Positions 9,912 through 18,756 of a DNA stretch of 47,754 bases are shown piece after piece. The notes beneath the pieces are model-generated. The model made no database searches, had not been told where the DNA came from, and saw nothing but the letters and a program-made list of their open reading frames with translations. The translations under genes were made by a program, and so were the position numbers. How positions within the stretch are numbered: the stretch's first letter is position 1; each line of letters opens with the position of its first letter. The DNA comes from Thermodesulfobacteriota bacterium (GTDB lineage: Bacteria > Desulfobacterota > Desulfomonilia > UBA1062), in contig JALOOZ010000002.1 in assembly GCA_025454155.1 (NCBI GenBank), forward strand, positions 1-47,754. Direction: 5' to 3'.

Positions 9912-11135
9912 CTATTGCCCCCACCGGTAGGTGAGGTAGGGCTTGCTCTGCTCGAACACGAGGCATATGTCTTCCAGATATTCCTCGGCCTGCTGGTGCG
10001 ACATCCCCTCGGTCTTGTTCACAAAGGACAGGGTCATGCCATAGTGAAGGGGGATCAGAACCTCGAGGAGCTTCGACCTGTCCAGGGTCTTCCTGTGATA
10101 ACATATGGCACAGTCGAAGAGGATACGGGCCCATACGGTTATGGGCATCTCGAAGTGATCGATATCCAGCGATGCGATCTCCCTGACCTTCTGGAGGTTT
10201 TCGGTGGAGAAAAGAGTGCGGTACACGTCCCAGTGGGTATTGAAGCCTTCCCTGAACTTCATGTACAGCTTGTCCTTGCTGACCTTGAGGGCGGGGGGGG
10301 CCTCCACGTCGCTGAGGTCGAATCCGAAGATGGCCGTGGGCTTGCTCCACTTAGTCGTGGTCCACTTCTTTTCAAAGGCGTTCATGAGGTTGAACAAGGT
10401 GATGACCATGTGACGGAACATGGATCCCACATCCAGGGCGGGATCCTTGGGCTTGGTGGTGCTTATCTTGGGCCTGCCCAGAAATGCCTGGCAGATTGGC
10501 AGCCCCTCGTTCACAGCAATGGTGCTCATCCAGATGTCGATGCCGAACTGGCTTACCTCCTCATCCCACAGTGAACTCTTCAGGAATGCTCCGGCCATCT
10601 GGCTGGAAAATCCACAATCCCCACCCATGGGCTGCCTCACCCTCCTGCCGTAGAGACAGCGGGAAAGGGGATAAGCGATGTTGTTGGCTATGGTGCCGTC
10701 GTATTTATGCCGCACATACAGGGGGGAGACGAAGGCGAAGTCCTTGAAGAGCGGCTCTCCCAGGTTCTTGATCCAGACCGGTGAGACGCTCCTGAGATTC
10801 GCTTCGATCACGATGGCCGCCTTGGCATCCATCTCCAGGACCTTTCTGAAGAGGTTCTTCAGGTTATTCCCCTTGCCCCGGATGCCCCTCGGTGTGGCAA
10901 TGGAGACCTTGGGTATTCCATGGGTCTCGGCGGCCATGAATGCCCTGCTGGTTCCATCCGTGCTGGTATTGTCACAGTTGATGATGACGCTTTGCATCTG
11001 GCGGAAGTGTTCATTGAGCCCCAGCGCCGCCTGCTCCGTCGGGAACGCTATGCCCTCTGCTTCGTTGTATGAGGGTATGCCGATGATGAGATCGGCCTTC
11101 CTGATTCCGCTGGGGTTGTCCTCCTGGAATTTCAT
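9912..11135 (-). CDS. GT-A fold glycosyltransferase resembling glucosyl/mannosylglycerate synthases
   Basis: A 407-aa protein beginning with a family-2 type GT-A domain (ADLIIGIPSYNEAEGI, then DNTSTDGT and RGIRGKGNNL). It continues with features I associate with glucosyl/mannosylglycerate synthases (GT81/GT78 neighbourhood): QPMGGDCGFS and FGIDIWMSTIAVNEG, followed by a long helical C-terminal half. In these enzymes the metal- and nucleotide-binding DXD stands just before LRS; here the tripeptide is Glu-Ala-Asn (111-113). Activity as a metal-dependent transferase is therefore uncertain. GGGAGAAGGC precedes the ATG. It is the first gene of a three-gene operon with a receiver domain and a PHP phosphoesterase. 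Compatible-solute or surface-glycan synthesis are both possible; family assignment is by recall. Confidence 0.7.
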   Translation of the reverse strand: MKFQEDNPSGIRKADLIIGIPSYNEAEGIAFPTEQAALGLNEHFRQMQSVIINCDNTSTDGTSRAFMAAETHGIPKVSIATPRGIRGKGNNLKNLFRKVLEMDAKAAIVIEANLRSVSPVWIKNLGEPLFKDFAFVSPLYVRHKYDGTIANNIAYPLSRCLYGRRVRQPMGGDCGFSSQMAGAFLKSSLWDEEVSQFGIDIWMSTIAVNEGLPICQAFLGRPKISTTKPKDPALDVGSMFRHMVITLFNLMNAFEKKWTTTKWSKPTAIFGFDLSDVEAPPALKVSKDKLYMKFREGFNTHWDVYRTLFSTENLQKVREIASLDIDHFEMPITVWARILFDCAICYHRKTLDRSKLLEVLIPLHYGMTLSFVNKTEGMSHQQAEEYLEDICLVFEQSKPYLTYRWGQ

Positions 11136-11205: not shown

Positions 11206-11381
11206 CAGAAAAATGCCGCGCTTCAGAGGAATAAACCCTTTGTGACAGAGGCTGGAAGGAGGATTTCATGGGCGGGGATGGCCACGTGGATATTCTTTCT
11301 GGAGGAACGTCCTTATCCAGGTAAATAGCCTGAAATCTCCCCTTGCCTTTTATAGGGCGCTATGTGATCGTAAATAATTCC

Positions 11382-13064
11382 ATGTACACACCGGATAAAC
11401 CGCTGATCATACAGAGTGACGGGAGCATCCTGCTGGAGGTGCTTTCGGGTATTTATGAGGAGGCGAGGGATGCCATTCTGCCCTTTGCCGAGCTCATCAA
11501 GTCACCCGAATATGTCCACACCTACCGGATAACACCCCTTTCCCTGTGGAACGCAGCGGCCATGGGTATCCGGCACGATGAGGTCCTTGAGGGTCTCCAG
11601 AGGTACGCACGCTATGATATCCCCGCCACGGTTGTAAGCCGTATTGCAGATGCCTTTGAACGGTGGGATGCCGTCCGTCTGTACCGTCACGACATAGACA
11701 CGCTGCGTGTTGAAGTCCGGTCAGAGAATCTCCTGAGCCAGCTCTCGGCAAAGAAAGAGATCGCACTGGTTATTGTCGACCATATACCACCGCGAGGCTT
11801 CCTGATTCCTTCCGGCATCCGGGGCAGGTTCAAGCACCAGCTCATCAAGATGGGCTACCCGGTACACGATCTGGTCGGGTATGACAAGGGTGACGACCTG
11901 GCCGTTGATCTGCGGGAGCGGACCCTGGCCGGTCAGGCCTTCGGGATGAGGCCCTATCAGGTCGAAGCTGCGGACAACTTCTGGGCGGGTGGAAGTCCCC
12001 AGGGCGGGCAGGGCATCGTGGTGCTCCCGTGCGGGGCCGGCAAGACCATTGTCGGCATGGCAGTGATGGCAAAGGCCAGGGCCCATACCCTTGTCCTGTG
12101 CACCAACGTCTCCGCAGTTCACCAGTGGATCGGGGAACTGGTGGACAAGACCACGATCTCAAGGGAGGACATCGGTGAGTATACCGGAGGCAGGAAGGAG
12201 ATCAGGCCCGTAACCGTAACCACCTATCAGATGCTCACCTTCCGCAGGACCAAGGACGGGCCATTCGAGCACATGAATCTCATGATGGCCCGCAACTGGG
12301 GGCTCATCCTCTATGATGAGGTGCACGTTGTTCCGGCGCCGGTCTTTCGCGCCACCACCGAGCTGCAGGCCAAGAGAAGGCTCGGGCTCACGGCCACACT
12401 CATAAGGGAGGACGGCCTGGAGCAGGACACCTTCTCGCTCGTGGGACCCAAGTGCTATGACGTGCCGTGGAAGGAGCTCGAGCAAAAGGGATTCATAGCT
12501 GAGGCCGTCTGCTGCGAGGTGAGGGTGCCCCTGCCGCCCGAGAAGACCCCTGAATATGTGCACGCATCGGAAAAGACACAGTTCAGGATCGCATCCGAGA
12601 ATGCCAACAAGGAATGCGTGCTCAGGGATCTTCTGAAAAAGCATGCCGACGAGCCTGTGCTCGTCATCGGACAGTACCTGAGCCAGCTCAGGAAGATCTC
12701 CTCGACCCTCAAGGCCCCCATGATCACGGGATCCACCGCCAATGCGCGCAGGGACCTTCTCTATGAATCCTTCAGAAGAGGGGAGATCCCGGTCCTCGTG
12801 GTTTCCAAGGTGGCCAACTTCGCCATCGATCTCCCCGATGCATCGGTGGCGATCCAGGTCTCAGGGACCTTCGGCTCGCGACAGGAAGAGGCCCAGCGGC
12901 TCGGCAGGATACTCAGGCCCAAGGAGCGGATCTCGACCTTCTATACCCTGGTGACCAAGGAGACCTCCGAAGAGATCTTTGCCCACAAGCGGCAGGTCTT
13001 CCTGGCCGAGCAGGGATACAAGTACCGGATCGAGGAGTGGTCCCTTGATGACATCAACGCATGA
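11382..13064 (+). CDS. XPB/Rad25-type superfamily 2 DNA helicase
   Basis: ATP-dependent 3'-5' DNA helicase/translocase of the bacterial XPB group, expected in DNA repair or transcription-coupled opening. From the chosen ATG the protein has 560 aa. An N-terminal accessory domain (about 8-95; YRITPLSLWNAA) precedes Walker A PCGAGKT (Lys221), the DEVH box (312-315), LGLTATLIRED with the XPB-specific RED triplet (342-344), and motif VI QRLGRILRP. The open frame reaches a TTG at 11343. The GTG at 11364 has AGGG 6 nt before it and the ATG at 11382 has no clear site, so the true start is uncertain within 13 codons. The gene overlaps its downstream neighbour by 17 nt, implying coupled synthesis of the two proteins. 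Confidence 0.9.
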   Translation: MYTPDKPLIIQSDGSILLEVLSGIYEEARDAILPFAELIKSPEYVHTYRITPLSLWNAAAMGIRHDEVLEGLQRYARYDIPATVVSRIADAFERWDAVRLYRHDIDTLRVEVRSENLLSQLSAKKEIALVIVDHIPPRGFLIPSGIRGRFKHQLIKMGYPVHDLVGYDKGDDLAVDLRERTLAGQAFGMRPYQVEAADNFWAGGSPQGGQGIVVLPCGAGKTIVGMAVMAKARAHTLVLCTNVSAVHQWIGELVDKTTISREDIGEYTGGRKEIRPVTVTTYQMLTFRRTKDGPFEHMNLMMARNWGLILYDEVHVVPAPVFRATTELQAKRRLGLTATLIREDGLEQDTFSLVGPKCYDVPWKELEQKGFIAEAVCCEVRVPLPPEKTPEYVHASEKTQFRIASENANKECVLRDLLKKHADEPVLVIGQYLSQLRKISSTLKAPMITGSTANARRDLLYESFRRGEIPVLVVSKVANFAIDLPDASVAIQVSGTFGSRQEEAQRLGRILRPKERISTFYTLVTKETSEEIFAHKRQVFLAEQGYKYRIEEWSLDDINA

Positions 13065-14799
13065 CCTCATCAGCAACATACCTTCCTACATGATCCCCAT
13101 CATCTCCACGCGGATCCTGGGCGATGTTGCGGACCAGAGGGCGTTGGCCGAAGGCCTTTCCGATACTGACCGGCTCGAGAGGGTCATTGCAGAGCTGACG
13201 GACAGGCAGCGGGATCTCCTGCTGAATCTTCACGAACTCGGTGAATATGTCGCCTGGGACATCCTCGGGAGGACTCACGGATGCTCGCCGGACGAACTGA
13301 GGGCAGATCTGGAGGAACTGGGTCTGAAAGGGCTGGTGTTCCAGGGAGGGCTTTCCGGAAGGGATCCGGTCATCCTCCTTCCGTCCCTTGCATCGCTCAT
13401 GGACACCATGAAGGCGAAGTACTACTCCGCTGTCGATGGTATCAACTGGAGTGAACAGAAGAGGCAGGGCCTCTGGGGACACATCACCATGATCAATGCC
13501 CTGCTTGTGGGCAGAATCCGCTGTAAGGCAGGGATCGAGCCTTTCAAGAAGGGGTGGGAGTATCTCGACGAGAAGCTCTCGGCGGTTCTCGATGTCAGGA
13601 GGATCTACTGGGAACTCGTGGAGCTGTCCTGTCTCAAGGAAAAGAACGGCAACGTTACCCCGGTGGTGCGGGCCATCGCCGGTCTTGCCGTGGAAGGCGA
13701 TTCCCGGTACAGCCTCTGGAGGTTCTGCCAGTCATGCAAGCCGTATCATGGCCTTGACTACCAGACATACCTGACCATCGGGGAGCGGGGGGTCATGAGG
13801 GAGTTCCTTGCAAGGTCGCTCACTCTGTGGATCGCCAGCAGGGATGAAACCATTGAGAATGGGAGGGCAACCATCGAATCCCTCCTGGATCTCTGGCTCG
13901 ACCTCGGGGTGCTCCAGCAGGATGTTGCGGGGGGGTGGATGCGTTTTGCGCCTCAGGCGGTCCGTGCATTGAAGACCGGCAGGACCGATGCAGCTCCGCA
14001 CTCCTACTCCGAGGAGGCCATCATCCAGCCCACCATGGAGATCCTCGTGCCTGGCGACTTCGACACGGTTGACCTGCTCAATGTCGGGGAGATAGCTGAC
14101 CTCGTCCAGGCAGATGTGATGAGCATCTACCGCATAACCAGGGAATCGGTGTTCAGGGCCCTCCAGGAGGGGTGGACCGTGGAAAAGATCATGAGCTTCC
14201 TGGACAGGATCTCACGCCACACCCTGCCGGACAACGTCCGGATGAACATAACCGGCTGGTCCCGGCTCCATTCCGAGGCACATATCATCAAGGGCACATT
14301 CCTGGTGCTCAGCGGCGAGAAGGCGGTTGTCCCCAAGGGGTTGGAAGAGGTCCTGCCCGGCATCTTCCGCATCCCGGAAAGGTGCGAGGAGGAGATCACC
14401 TCGTTTCTGGAGAAAAAAGGGGTCATGATCAGGAATGCCGAGGGTATCAGGGAGACGGACTACGATATCGACTGGGGAAAGCCCCTTCCTCTCAAAGGGC
14501 CTCAGCGCAGCACGGCACGCACCTCCCAAAAGGAAGGGGTATACCCCTTCGGCATGGTCATGCCGCTGCCGTACGGTCCCAGACGGGAGATGCTTTTCGA
14601 AGAGGCCCTCAATGACGGCAAGACCCTCATCATCTTCTATCCCCGGCAGGGTTATGGCGAGATGCAGGCCAGAAAGATCAGCCCGCTGTTCATCTTCCGC
14701 AGGGGAGGCATGCCGTTCATGGAGGCCTACTGCGATGACACGGGCGAGGGAGAAGTCTTCGACATCAGCAAGGTACGGGCCATCTTCAGGCAGCAGTGA
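13048..14799 (+). CDS. Helicase-associated protein with XPB-type accessory domain and WYL-like C-terminus
   Basis: A 583-aa protein partnered with the XPB helicase. Residues 325-410 (IIQPTMEILVP, YRITRESVFRAL, then HTLPDNVR) match the XPB/Ssl2-like Helicase_C_3 domain. The same domain forms the N-terminus of the helicase upstream. Residues 512-583 (TLIIFYPRQGYGEMQARKISP, then a beta-rich end) look like a WYL-type ligand-binding fold. The N-terminal 310 residues are helical with winged-helix character and are otherwise unrecognised. The start at 13048 has GAGGAG about 9 nt upstream and overlaps the helicase stop. Pairing of these two families also occurs in actinobacteria (the Rv0861c/Rv0862c region, from memory). 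No nuclease motif is evident. Its stop lies 3 nt from the convergent M48 gene. Confidence 0.75.
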   Translation: MTSTHDLISNIPSYMIPIISTRILGDVADQRALAEGLSDTDRLERVIAELTDRQRDLLLNLHELGEYVAWDILGRTHGCSPDELRADLEELGLKGLVFQGGLSGRDPVILLPSLASLMDTMKAKYYSAVDGINWSEQKRQGLWGHITMINALLVGRIRCKAGIEPFKKGWEYLDEKLSAVLDVRRIYWELVELSCLKEKNGNVTPVVRAIAGLAVEGDSRYSLWRFCQSCKPYHGLDYQTYLTIGERGVMREFLARSLTLWIASRDETIENGRATIESLLDLWLDLGVLQQDVAGGWMRFAPQAVRALKTGRTDAAPHSYSEEAIIQPTMEILVPGDFDTVDLLNVGEIADLVQADVMSIYRITRESVFRALQEGWTVEKIMSFLDRISRHTLPDNVRMNITGWSRLHSEAHIIKGTFLVLSGEKAVVPKGLEEVLPGIFRIPERCEEEITSFLEKKGVMIRNAEGIRETDYDIDWGKPLPLKGPQRSTARTSQKEGVYPFGMVMPLPYGPRREMLFEEALNDGKTLIIFYPRQGYGEMQARKISPLFIFRRGGMPFMEAYCDDTGEGEVFDISKVRAIFRQQ

Positions 14800-14802
14800 G
14801 TA

Positions 14803-16113
14803 CTATCGCCCGCTCTGCTTTCTCTCCTTGATCATGTCATGCATGGTCTTCAGCTCTTCGAGCACATCCGGGGGAAGATTGTCCTTGTCCTTGAGGGCCG
14901 CCTCGATGTGATAACGGCCGGCCTCGTAGCTCTCGGTCCGAAAGAAGTACCTGCCGAAGGAAACGTGGGCCAGCGTCTGCTTCTTCGCCTTTTCGTAGAG
15001 GATCCCCAAGGTGTAGTCCACCCTGACGTCCCTGCCCTGGTAAGGCTGGATGACCTTGATGGCCTCGTCGAACTCACCGCGCTCCTGAAGGATCTCGGCC
15101 AGGGCTGTTCTGGTCCGGGCTGATCGGGCATGTTCCTTCAGCAGAGGATAAGCCTCGTCATTTCTGCCCAGCGCATGCAGGCTGAGGCCCTGGTAGGCCT
15201 TTGCGACGCTCAGATCTATCTTCTCCAGCTGGGCGAGAGCCTGGGCATAGTTGCCGCTTCTCGTATTGGACAGGGCTTGTGCGAGGGACCTGTAGGGCTC
15301 CGGCATCTGTGCGGTCCGCATGCCTGCCTCAGAACTGGGGAGGATCAGTCCTGCCATGCATGCGGAGAGGGTCCAGTACGCCTCACCGGGCCTGGGTTTT
15401 CCCGGGTCTTCGGCGATGGTTGCAATCCTGTTCTGGGTAAAGGGGTGGGTGAGGAGATATTCGGGTATACCGGAGGTACCGGAGAACGCATGGAGCCTGA
15501 TGAGGAAGCGCGCCATGGCTGAAGAATCGATGCCGGATGCCCTCAGGAGATTTCTTCCGAACTCGTCGGAGCTGAACTCATGCTGCCGTGAATAGGCAAG
15601 CCGGATATTTTCCGTGCCGCCCAGGGATGAGAAGATCATGGCAGCCCCTGCCTCGGGGTTCTTGGAGGAGAGCAGGGTTCCCGCCAGCACACCGAGGATG
15701 GTGGCCGTATTGATCTTCATCTGGGTGTTGAAGTTCTCGGGTATGTGGCGAAGCTGGCTGTGTCCCATCTCGTGGCCGATGACCGCGGCTATCTCATCCA
15801 TATCCTGGGAGAAGAGCAGCAGACCCAGATTCACAAAGATATGTCCGTCCGGGATGGTGAAGGCATTGACCGAACGGTCACGGACAATGTGCACCTTGAA
15901 GTTGTACACGGGGTCCCTGACATGATCGGCCAGCTTCTCAGAGATCATCTGCACCGGCCATACGATCTCGGGGTCGTGGACGATGAGGTTGTTGGCCTCC
16001 AGAAGGTTGATGAAATCCTTCGCAACGGTGCGCTCGTCCTCATAGGTCATGGCATGTGCCTGGCCGCTCAGAAGCAGGATGAACCCGAGGAGAACAACGG
16101 AGTATCTTTTCAT
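14803..16113 (-). CDS. Periplasmic M48-family metalloprotease with TPR repeats (BepA-like)
   Basis: Zinc metallopeptidase likely involved in outer-membrane protein quality control, by analogy with BepA. Starting at the ATG at 16113 the protein has 436 aa: a signal peptide (1-21, MKRY... LLSGQAHA), the peptidase domain with HEMGH (114-118), the downstream zinc-ligand motif HEFSSDEFG, and a C-terminal half of tetratricopeptide-type helices (LAQALSNTRSGNYAQAL, AYQGLSLHALGRNDEAYPLL, ALAEILQERGEFDEAI). This is the BepA architecture. Another in-frame ATG at 16125 has AAGGG four nt upstream but would add four residues before the signal peptide. The gene converges on the helicase-partner gene and diverges from the PKD-repeat protein. 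Confidence 0.88.
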   Translation of the reverse strand: MKRYSVVLLGFILLLSGQAHAMTYEDERTVAKDFINLLEANNLIVHDPEIVWPVQMISEKLADHVRDPVYNFKVHIVRDRSVNAFTIPDGHIFVNLGLLLFSQDMDEIAAVIGHEMGHSQLRHIPENFNTQMKINTATILGVLAGTLLSSKNPEAGAAMIFSSLGGTENIRLAYSRQHEFSSDEFGRNLLRASGIDSSAMARFLIRLHAFSGTSGIPEYLLTHPFTQNRIATIAEDPGKPRPGEAYWTLSACMAGLILPSSEAGMRTAQMPEPYRSLAQALSNTRSGNYAQALAQLEKIDLSVAKAYQGLSLHALGRNDEAYPLLKEHARSARTRTALAEILQERGEFDEAIKVIQPYQGRDVRVDYTLGILYEKAKKQTLAHVSFGRYFFRTESYEAGRYHIEAALKDKDNLPPDVLEELKTMHDMIKERKQSGR

Positions 16114-16219
16114 AAACACCCACATATGCCCTTGGAGCATGGTTTTCAAGGGTATCTTTCGGCCAGGTTCCAGGGGAGAAAAGCATATCAGCTGCACCCC
16201 TGCAGGGGAGCGGTACTAT

Positions 16220-16365: not shown

Positions 16366-18756
16366 ATGAAACGTGTCCGGAGCATCCTCTTTCTGATCGT
16401 GGCCTTCATTGCTTTTTTCCCTGTCCAGGGTTTTGCTGCTTCGTTACGAGTGAACTGGAACGCAAACGGCGAGACAGACCTTGCCGGCTACAAACTCTAT
16501 TACGGAACCCAGTCGAACACCTACGGTCAGCCCGTTGTTGTCGGTTCAGCCACCACGTACACCTTGAGCAACGTGCAGAATGGCGCGACCTACTATGTGG
16601 CGGTCTCAGCATATGATTCAGCCGGAAATGAGTCGACGAGGTCCACTGAGCAGAGTGCGTACATCCCCGTGGCGGACACCACGCCCCCTACGGGAAGCGT
16701 CTCCATCAATGCAGGGGCGGCCCGGACCACCTCGAGGACGGTGACGCTGTCTCTCAATGCCAGTGATGCAGGCGGCACGGTCACGGGCATGAGGTTCAGC
16801 AACGACGGCACGACCTTTTCCAATGAAGTCGCTTATGCGGCGAGCTGTTCCTGGACCCTCACCAGCGGCGACGGCATCAAGACCGTGTATGCACGATTCA
16901 AGGATTCCTCGGGCAACTGGATGAGCTCTTCCGCCACGGACACCATCGAGCTGAGGCTCGATACGGACGGCGACGGCATGCCTGACGCGTGGGAGACCAC
17001 ATACGGACTGAATCCCAGCGCGAACGACGCGTCGGGAGACAGCGATAATGACGGTGTTTCCAACCTGAATGAATACCTGGCCGGATCGAATCCGACCAGC
17101 CCAGCGGACAATGCGCCGGTGGCCAATGCAGGCCCGGACCAGAATGTGGCCCCCCAGAGGGTGGTCCTTGACGGCTCCGCATCGTATGATCCAAGCAACG
17201 ACTCCCTGGGCTACTCATGGAACCAGCTCAGCGGCCCGGTCACGGTCCTTATCGAGACCTCGAACCAGAAGGTGGCCAGCTTCCTCGGGATCAAGGCAGG
17301 GACATACACCTTCCGGCTGAGCTGTTCGGACGGCCACCAGGCATCGACAGACAGCATGGGCGTAACCGTCCGGAACGTCTCGCCGACGGCAGATGCGGGC
17401 AGCGACAGGACCATCAACGCCGGCACCCAGATCACGCTGCACGCCATCGGAGCCGACCCCAACGAGGACACCCTCACCTACACCTGGACCAAGGTATCAG
17501 GTCCGGGCGTGAGCCTGCCGAACCTGAACCAGCAGGACATCACCTTCACACCGAGCGCCGCTGGCCTGTACACCTTCTCGGTGAGGTGCTCCGATGCCGT
17601 CAATACCAGTGCGGCAGACCAGGTCAATGTCACGGTCAATTCCGTGAACCAGGCCCCAACCGCCAATGCCGGGCAGGACCAGGACGTGAACGTCGGCAGC
17701 CAGGTCCGTCTGAGCGGATCCGGATCCACGGATCCGGACGGCAACCTGCTGACCTATGCATGGACCCAGCTCTCCGGATCCTCCGTTACCCTGAGCAGCA
17801 CCACTGCCTGCGAGCCGACCTTCACCGCTACCTCAGTAGGAACCATGGAATTCCAGCTCGTGGTCAACGACGGCGCAGTCTCGTCGACCCCTGACAGGGT
17901 CATCGTCAGGGTGGTCTCCCAGAACACACCGCCGGTGGCGAACGCGGGAATAGACGGGCACGCCTTCGTGGGCGACGACGTGGTGCTCGATGCATCCAAT
18001 TCATACGATCCTGACAACGATGGTCTGACCTTCAGCTGGACCCAGGTGGGAGGCGCAGCCGTGCAGATCTTCAATGCCGCCACCATAAGCCCGTTCTTTA
18101 CACCCACCACCTCGGGCGTGTTCGAATTCAGGGTTAGCGTGTCCGACGGACAGACCACTTCGACCGATGACGTGATCGTCACCGTGGACAACGCCAACCA
18201 GCTGCCAGTCGCCAATGCCGGGAGTTCCGTGGTGGCGATGGTAGGAGAGACCATCACCCTGGACGGGAGTGCCAGCTACGACCCGGATGGCGACCCCATC
18301 TCCTATGTCTGGTCCCAGACCGGCGGAACCAGCGTTTCCATGAGTGCATCCAACACCGCGCGGCCGTCTTTCTCAGAGGTCCTGGAAGGGGTGTACGTGT
18401 TTGAGCTGCGTGTTTACGACGGCCATGACACCAGCAGTCCGTCCAGTGTCACGGTGACCGTACAGTCAGCTGCGCGGGAGATCACCCAGATTACTCCTGA
18501 GGATGGAACCGTCTGCTATTCGAGCCCGACCCTCAAGTGGACAGGGGTAGGCTTCAAGGGCTACAAGACGTACCTGTCCATAGACGGGAAGCGGTTCAGC
18601 AAGGTCTACAGCGGCACCTCCACCTCCACGACGCTCCACTCGGTCCTGTGGCGGTGGTTCATCCCCGCAGGGACCACGGTGACCTGGTACGTGGAAGGTA
18701 CCGCGACCGATGGCCAGATCGTAAAGAGCGCCAACAAGAGATTCATCAGAAAATGA
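16366..18756 (+). CDS. Secreted FN3/PKD-repeat protein with calcium-binding segment
   Basis: A 796-aa exported protein. A signal peptide (1-24, ending VQGFAA) is followed by a fibronectin type III domain (25-102). Next comes a beta-rich segment and then aspartate-rich loops LDTDGDGMPDAWE and GDSDNDGVSNLNEY (about 197-240), typical of thrombospondin-type-3/dockerin-like calcium sites. Five PKD-type domains follow, starting near residues 249, 338, 428, 520 and 612, each opening with a variant of PVANAG and carrying YSW/YTW and FRLSCSDG-like motifs. Residues 703-796 form another beta-rich domain. There is no sorting signal, catalytic domain or membrane anchor, so it is probably an adhesin or matrix component. 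GGAGG lies 7 nt before the ATG and a strong terminator follows. Confidence 0.9.
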   Translation: MKRVRSILFLIVAFIAFFPVQGFAASLRVNWNANGETDLAGYKLYYGTQSNTYGQPVVVGSATTYTLSNVQNGATYYVAVSAYDSAGNESTRSTEQSAYIPVADTTPPTGSVSINAGAARTTSRTVTLSLNASDAGGTVTGMRFSNDGTTFSNEVAYAASCSWTLTSGDGIKTVYARFKDSSGNWMSSSATDTIELRLDTDGDGMPDAWETTYGLNPSANDASGDSDNDGVSNLNEYLAGSNPTSPADNAPVANAGPDQNVAPQRVVLDGSASYDPSNDSLGYSWNQLSGPVTVLIETSNQKVASFLGIKAGTYTFRLSCSDGHQASTDSMGVTVRNVSPTADAGSDRTINAGTQITLHAIGADPNEDTLTYTWTKVSGPGVSLPNLNQQDITFTPSAAGLYTFSVRCSDAVNTSAADQVNVTVNSVNQAPTANAGQDQDVNVGSQVRLSGSGSTDPDGNLLTYAWTQLSGSSVTLSSTTACEPTFTATSVGTMEFQLVVNDGAVSSTPDRVIVRVVSQNTPPVANAGIDGHAFVGDDVVLDASNSYDPDNDGLTFSWTQVGGAAVQIFNAATISPFFTPTTSGVFEFRVSVSDGQTTSTDDVIVTVDNANQLPVANAGSSVVAMVGETITLDGSASYDPDGDPISYVWSQTGGTSVSMSASNTARPSFSEVLEGVYVFELRVYDGHDTSSPSSVTVTVQSAAREITQITPEDGTVCYSSPTLKWTGVGFKGYKTYLSIDGKRFSKVYSGTSTSTTLHSVLWRWFIPAGTTVTWYVEGTATDGQIVKSANKRFIRK

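Follow-up and report, generated by a model that had tools for sequence, protein, structure and literature searches.

What does a bacterial XPB helicase do when its gene overlaps that of a second protein? This question is raised by two genes on contig JALOOZ010000002.1 of a Thermodesulfobacteriota bacterium (assembly GCA_025454155.1; Desulfobacterota, Desulfomonilia, UBA1062), of which positions 1 to 47,754 of the forward strand were analyzed and are called the window here. The function of bacterial XPB was described as elusive in a 2026 review (PMC13024598), and according to a study of 2012, bacteria had no other known TFIIH subunits, and their XPB was considered unlikely to work within a TFIIH-like complex (PMC3353954). 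We consider it probable that the products of both genes form a two-subunit machine for DNA opening, similar in its operation to the XPB-p52 core of TFIIH. The direct basis for this reading is the identity of the domains, the homology of one partner domain to both the N-terminal domain (NTD) of XPB and the clutch of p52, the coupling of the two genes, and their co-occurrence among genomes. The comparison with the XPB NTD and the p52 clutch of TFIIH is the most informative one, and it had been missed by a first-pass annotation of this locus. The coordinates of all features are collected in Table 1.

The product of the upstream gene was assigned to the bacterial XPB family as a full member. It scored 809.5 bits against the NCBIfam profile NF045503, "DNA repair helicase XPB" (cut-off 610), over profile positions 1–548, and it exhibited the superfamily 2 (SF2) motifs GAGKT (Walker A), DEVH (DExH), and IREDG (RED). 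The Pfam family Helicase_C_3 (PF13625) was matched on residues 8–129 with an E-value of 4e-27. The family NF045503 and the bacterial/eukaryotic type of N-terminal domain are shared with the XPB proteins of Mycobacterium tuberculosis and Kineococcus, which, in contrast, were studied singly in vitro. The start codon ATG at 11382 is likelier than a TTG at 11343, since a 1-bp insertion or deletion located immediately 5′ of this ATG in one relative (L004) disrupts the frame that begins at the TTG. Three relatives conserve a block directly 5′ of the XPB start at 11335–11382, CCCTTGCCTTTT ... TGTGATCGTA..TAATTCC, which may be a promoter whose leader is very short. The count of promoter and terminator sites at the locus was no higher than that expected by chance.

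The partner protein contains the same Pfam family, which was matched on residues 325–427 with 59.2 bits (cut-off 34.2, E 5e-16). That the XPB N-terminus and the partner share Helicase_C_3 had been claimed in the first-pass annotation, and the claim held when it was examined with profiles. A BLASTP comparison between the two window proteins was not significant (best E 0.6), indicating that their relation is ancient, while the profile–profile alignment of partner domains with XPB N-terminal domains gave a probability of 98.2% (E 5e-14), or 94% (E 1e-7) when only the sequences of this bacterial family were used. We regard the shared domain as real and very diverged. The common unit also appeared larger than claimed; as delimited by the alignments, it comprises approximately 155 residues of XPB, namely the N-terminal docking domain and a second small domain, for which a beta-alpha-beta-beta-alpha order was predicted by eye in XPB. 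The small domain alone was aligned between XPB and the partners by hhalign at 96.8%. The partner families were aligned with XPB residues 4–166 (Actinobacteria, 96%; the genome G368 of the same phylum, 94%), residues 42–164 (Paenibacillus, 96%), and residues 8–164 (the window family, 67%), and the NCBIfam XPB profile placed residues 510–665 of the G368 partner on XPB positions 2–164 (E 1e-7). On Deinococcus plasmids, an open reading frame (ORF) of 99–114 aa lies between the XPB and partner genes (L031:4484-4780, L061:7753-8079, and L067:7743-8087); it carries the small domain, with 95.3% to the partners and 80.8% to XPB.

Homologues of the partner are listed as "Helicase-associated domain-containing protein" in Actinobacteria, Deinococcus, and Paenibacillus, with no function assigned in the databases. 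Their identity to the window partner is low and their lengths are 657–847 aa. The proteins of Deinococcus and Actinobacteria are collinear with the window partner over the clutch-like domain and the C-terminus, and that of Paenibacillus over the N-terminal half and the clutch-like domain (93% over 426 columns). The N-terminal half of the window partner gave no Pfam match, and no internal (winged-helix) repeat was found in it by hhalign. One histidine and three cysteines of this helical half (residues 145, 159, 195, and 230; 13480–13737) are invariant or nearly so across the family and possibly form a metal site. At the opposite end, the proposed WYL-like character of the C-terminus was upheld at a borderline level: PF13280 was matched on residues 518–578 with 20.6 bits by hmmscan, which is below the cut-off of 21.8, and with 24.9 bits in a six-frame genome search, where three relatives were also above the cut-off. 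A WYL match at E ≤ 0.1 was obtained for 18 of 23 relatives. Within the family, conservation is highest in the clutch-like and WYL segments (60% and 64% mean identity, respectively, compared with 36–50% for the rest), and the residues of the WYL motif are PF[MV] instead. An AlphaFold model of this tail exhibited a helix followed by four strands at a predicted local distance difference test (pLDDT) score of 45, which is too weak for the assignment of an Sm-like fold. The tail is missing in the cyanobacterial-type partner and in those of the genomes G277 and G368, and no clear WYL domain was found in Paenibacillus. The WYL-like domain is shared with PafBC, DriD, and the PIF1-WYL helicase, but no helix-turn-helix (HTH)-WYL-WCX arrangement was recognized in the partner, whose tail sits on a clutch-type scaffold.

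In TFIIH, the XPB NTD and the p52/Tfb2 clutch are a homologous pair that forms a pseudo-symmetric dimer and recruits XPB (PMC6422496, PMC9557730). Both p52/Tfb2 and p8/Tfb5 stimulate the XPB ATPase, and mutants of the Tfb2 interface weaken the interaction with XPB/Ssl2 (PMC9557730); a winged helix adjoins the clutch in p52 (PMC6422496). The bacterial pair is alike in having an XPB motor with the N-terminal domain and a second protein with a helical N-terminal half and a homologous clutch toward its C-terminal side, and a tight association of the two is expected. When a domain profile composed of partners only, from several phyla, was searched against all PDB chains, XPB appeared first (4e-8 to 1e-5), followed by p52/GTF2H4 (0.0026) and Tfb2 (0.005–0.03), together with one malate dehydrogenase (0.02). 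Addition of bacterial XPB NTDs to this profile gave 4e-16 for XPB, 1.4e-5 for p52, and 3e-4 for Tfb2, with the next unrelated chain at 0.43. Compared with human p52 (the same sequence as PDB chain 28jm_D), full partner profiles matched at the clutch and scored 45.3 for the window family, 47.3 for Deinococcus, and 40.9 for Actinobacteria; the maximum over 120 column shuffles per family was 27.8. The Deinococcus alignment spans p52 residues 264–419, i.e., it also includes the stretch preceding the clutch. The preference was reciprocal: exchanging the bacterial XPB NTD profile for the partner profile raised the scores of p52/Tfb2 by approximately 7–11 bits, and for eukaryotic XPB it was the bacterial XPB profile that scored higher, by 27–42 bits. 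The window partner and p52 have in common TRESV, then A...G.T...I..FL, and later I..W. Unlike the TFIIH subunits, the two proteins are encoded by two genes in one bacterial operon, and the C-terminus of the window partner is a WYL-like domain, where p52 has a p8-binding domain. The second small domain scored above 400 shuffles against yeast Tfb5 and not above them against human p8, and a PDB search with it placed yeast Tfb5 (p8) near the top at an E-value of about 0.5 only; its equivalence to p8 is only suggestive.

The two genes are tightly coupled. Their 17-nt overlap, which had already been noted, was confirmed; this exact length is found in 17 of 23 genomes of the bacterial family, and the others have 11–29 nt with the start codons picked. 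The partner is present in 23 of the 24 genomes of this family, and XPB adjoins it wherever the contig permits a check. In one genome (G037), both genes are missing and the flanking genes were found only as distant homologues (39% and 31%); the assembly may therefore simply lack the entire block. A survey of co-occurrence, which the first-pass annotation had proposed, covered 395 genomes of the phylum and detected both XPB and the partner in the identical 14. These represent three taxonomic families, with two different gene orders; since 12 of them belong to one family, they amount to about three independent cases, namely the window family, G277 (partner upstream of XPB), and G368 (partner downstream). 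Three more genomes of the phylum, all without XPB, each gave one Helicase_C_3 match below the cut-off, two of which are partner-like and one of which is an unrelated frame. Outside the phylum, the partner adjoins XPB in Deinococcus, in Paenibacillus with a 14-nt overlap, in the cyanobacterium Gloeocapsopsis with the partner first, and in Actinomyces in divergent orientation, and it lies a few kb away in Tsukamurella (3.5 kb) and Nocardia (about 5 kb). In five bacterial phyla, and in several gene orders, the partner was hence located beside XPB or close to it, and such constant company under varied order points to a functional pair rather than to inheritance of a single operon. A Corynebacterium diphtheriae plasmid carries an XPB-derived ORF beside an IS3 transposase (L099:7989-9569), whose match stops at XPB residue 367; this is probably a truncated XPB copy.

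Several observations weigh against the likeness to the XPB-p52 core. The Pfam family Tfb2 (PF03849) gave 15.5 bits on the partner, below the cut-off of 34.5, and covered residues 358–387 only. Alignment of the window partner showed no conservation of the p52 interface residues (yeast/human E342/E310, R369/R337, and F370/F338; PMC9557730). As a structural check, the AlphaFold model of the full partner was of low confidence (pLDDT 35, from an alignment of 3 sequences). Partner genes were also found with no XPB nearby on actinobacterial plasmids of Streptomyces, Kitasatospora, and Rhodococcus (L100:5269-7041, L101:5050-7515, and L102:4516-6873), which a chromosomal XPB may serve. Finally, in a genome of the same phylum without XPB (G374), a weak Helicase_C_3 partner-like protein lies directly 3′ of a SNF2-family helicase (L074:5177-9818), which suggests that clutch-type scaffolds are able to serve other motors. 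Because the interface residues, the PF03849 match, and the p8 equivalence fall short, we class the partner as a protein working like p52, without assigning it to the p52 family.

On the preferred reading, XPB would be an ATP-driven SF2 motor and the partner a p52-like scaffold, whose clutch-like domain would pair with the XPB N-terminal domain to form a pseudo-symmetric heterodimer. By analogy with TFIIH, this pairing would hold and stimulate the motor; the partner is predicted to bind XPB and to stimulate its ATPase. DNA would be opened by the translocation of XPB while the partner holds one strand. For this, the partner's WYL domain would probably grip the single strand that is made or recognized where the DNA opens; contact with DNA or another protein would probably be the role of its helical N-terminal half. 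The WYL domains of PafBC bind single-stranded DNA (ssDNA) (PMC11804915), and in the same source the WYL domain of a PIF1 helicase is cited as an ssDNA-binding module and supplies a precedent for a WYL domain attached to a helicase; the same ability is predicted for the partner by comparison with these two. The task may be DNA repair or damage-associated opening alongside UvrC and Mfd, and a DNA-damage role is possible for the pair. Both UvrC and Mfd are present in the bacterial family (for UvrC, the window genome has only a fragment, which lies at a contig end), and the pair would therefore be an addition to normal excision repair. Archaeal XPB also has a dedicated partner, Bax1 (DUF790), but that protein is a nuclease which binds ThM and HD2 (PMC13024598), and the window partner is unrelated to it by profile. 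The earlier remark that no nuclease motif is visible was borne out: Bax1 (PF05626) was detected in 0 of 42 genomes of the class, with positive controls in archaea and Deinobacterium, and no nuclease was recognized by a Pfam scan of the pair.

The age of the arrangement was evaluated with a 117-column domain tree, in which all XPB domains, bacterial and eukaryotic, stand apart from the partners and p52 with 100% ultrafast bootstrap. A recent duplication at this locus was rejected when the XPB and partner domains of this bacterial family were forced to group (delta lnL 38, approximately unbiased (AU) test p 1e-4). Of the first-pass proposal that the domain arose by sharing or duplication, the homologous domain thus stands and a recent duplication here does not. 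An AU test weakly rejected a eukaryote-only duplication, with p52 derived from eukaryotic XPB (p 0.04). The arrangement with two proteins is old, and orthology of the partner and p52 is putative. A tree with p52 grouped with XPB and away from the partners was only 0.7 log units worse, and hence the 100% bootstrap should not be over-read for p52. This small cost agrees with a history in which XPB N-terminal domains gave rise to the partner clutch and to eukaryotic p52 on separate occasions, and the two pairs would then be alike in working and not kin; no WYL domain is known in p52, and the likeness outside the clutch is marginal in sequence. However, the weak rejection of p52 from eukaryotic XPB, the reciprocal profile scores favoring the partner-p52 pairing, and the alignment of the pre-clutch stretch in Deinococcus argue for kinship, and we hold an independent origin to be somewhat improbable. 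The converse proposal, that the eukaryotic TFIIH XPB-p52 core descends from a prokaryotic two-subunit machine surviving as this operon, with the Deinococcus small ORF as the counterpart of p8/Tfb5, is put forward tentatively and as rather doubtful.

The same heterodimer might instead act in transcription, through promoter- or RNA-polymerase-linked opening and not repair. The XPB-p52 pair of TFIIH acts in transcription initiation (PMC6422496), the WYL factor PafBC binds ssDNA and RNA polymerase (PMC11804915), and repair is already covered by UvrC and Mfd. Nevertheless, an RNA-polymerase-binding element was not identified in the pair, and XPB is annotated as a repair helicase, although by homology only. 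We judge a role in transcription to be unlikely.

Homologous domains frequently homodimerize, and each of the two domains might therefore associate with itself; the partner would then be a DNA-binding regulator in its own right, linked to XPB only by a common operon and a domain of ancient origin, with no mutual dimer. The spacing of a few kb between the genes in some Actinobacteria would suit such independence, yet the strict co-occurrence in the phylum sample, the overlap kept in most of the bacterial family, and the precedent of a heterodimer formed by this very domain pair in TFIIH make it distinctly unlikely.

It is very improbable that the pair acts as a sensor against phages or foreign DNA, in which the WYL domain senses and XPB is the effector motor, as the first-pass idea of a phage-DNA-responsive machine implied: although many defence regulators contain WYL domains (PMC4012209, PMC9122601), XPB is weakly similar to the PbeA defence helicase in PADLOC, and some homologues are plasmid-borne, identical ordinary genes flank the locus across the bacterial family, a PADLOC scan of the pair, with the flanking genes outside it, returned generic WYL/helicase matches only (generic WYL for the partner, and none for distant partners), viral contigs contained no relatives of the window proteins (for XPB, this refers to close relatives only), and the pair has no recognized nuclease. 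With ordinary conserved flanks and no specific PADLOC match, a mobile anti-phage system is unlikely.

In the nine loci of the family that were compared, the flanks are conserved ordinary genes (names by eye); beyond the immediate neighbors of Table 1, a response regulator and other ordinary genes were found. A large secreted protein with fibronectin/PKD-like repeats, as judged by eye, is encoded at 16366–18756 of the window and lies near the pair in most of the relatives compared.

Table 1. Features of the XPB-partner locus in window coordinates.
Feature	Position	Strand	Basis or remark
Divergent upstream neighbor, glycosyltransferase-like by eye	9912..11135	-	Homologue beside the pair in 7/9 family loci
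XPB helicase gene	11382..13064	+	560 aa, ATG 11382; NF045503, ERCC3_RAD25_C, ResIII, and Helicase_C matches
XPB N-terminal docking domain (Helicase_C_3; corresponds to the TFIIH XPB NTD)	11403..11768	+	PF13625; alignment with human XPB NTD
XPB second small domain, also in partners, approximately residues 105-165	11694..11876	+	hhalign 96.8%; full-length profiles
SF2 helicase core of XPB	11943..13031	+	Pfam ResIII, Helicase_C, ERCC3_RAD25_C; GAGKT, DEVH, and RED motifs
Partner gene, candidate p52-like scaffold	13048..14799	+	583 aa, start ATG 13048
Overlap of XPB and partner genes, 17 nt	13048..13064	+	Stop codon included
Helical N-terminal half of partner	13048..14007	+	Pattern resembling winged helices, judged only by eye
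Clutch-like domain of partner (Helicase_C_3), residues 325-427	14020..14328	+	PF13625; PDB profile matches
Reduced second small domain of partner, approximately residues 416-464	14293..14439	+	hhalign of partner 324-464 with XPB 8-164
WYL-like C-terminal domain of partner, approximately residues 518-579	14599..14784	+	PF13280, borderline
Convergent downstream neighbor, M48-like metalloprotease by eye	14803..16197	-	Homologue beside the pair in 9/9 family loci

In the open-access literature, with subscription papers and preprints outside the search, no bacterial p52-like partner was found, Helicase_C_3 is named in only one paper, and nothing combines WYL, XPB, and winged helix; priority for the bacterial p52-like partner is not certain. 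XPB of M. tuberculosis, when assayed alone, unwinds only in large excess and hydrolyzes ATP slowly (PMC3353954), as expected of a motor assayed without its partner, and a dedicated p52-like partner could explain this weakness of the lone bacterial XPB. The pair could also give a two-protein minimal model of DNA opening by TFIIH and bear on the origin of TFIIH, and whether bacterial XPB acts in a TFIIH-like complex becomes a directly testable question.

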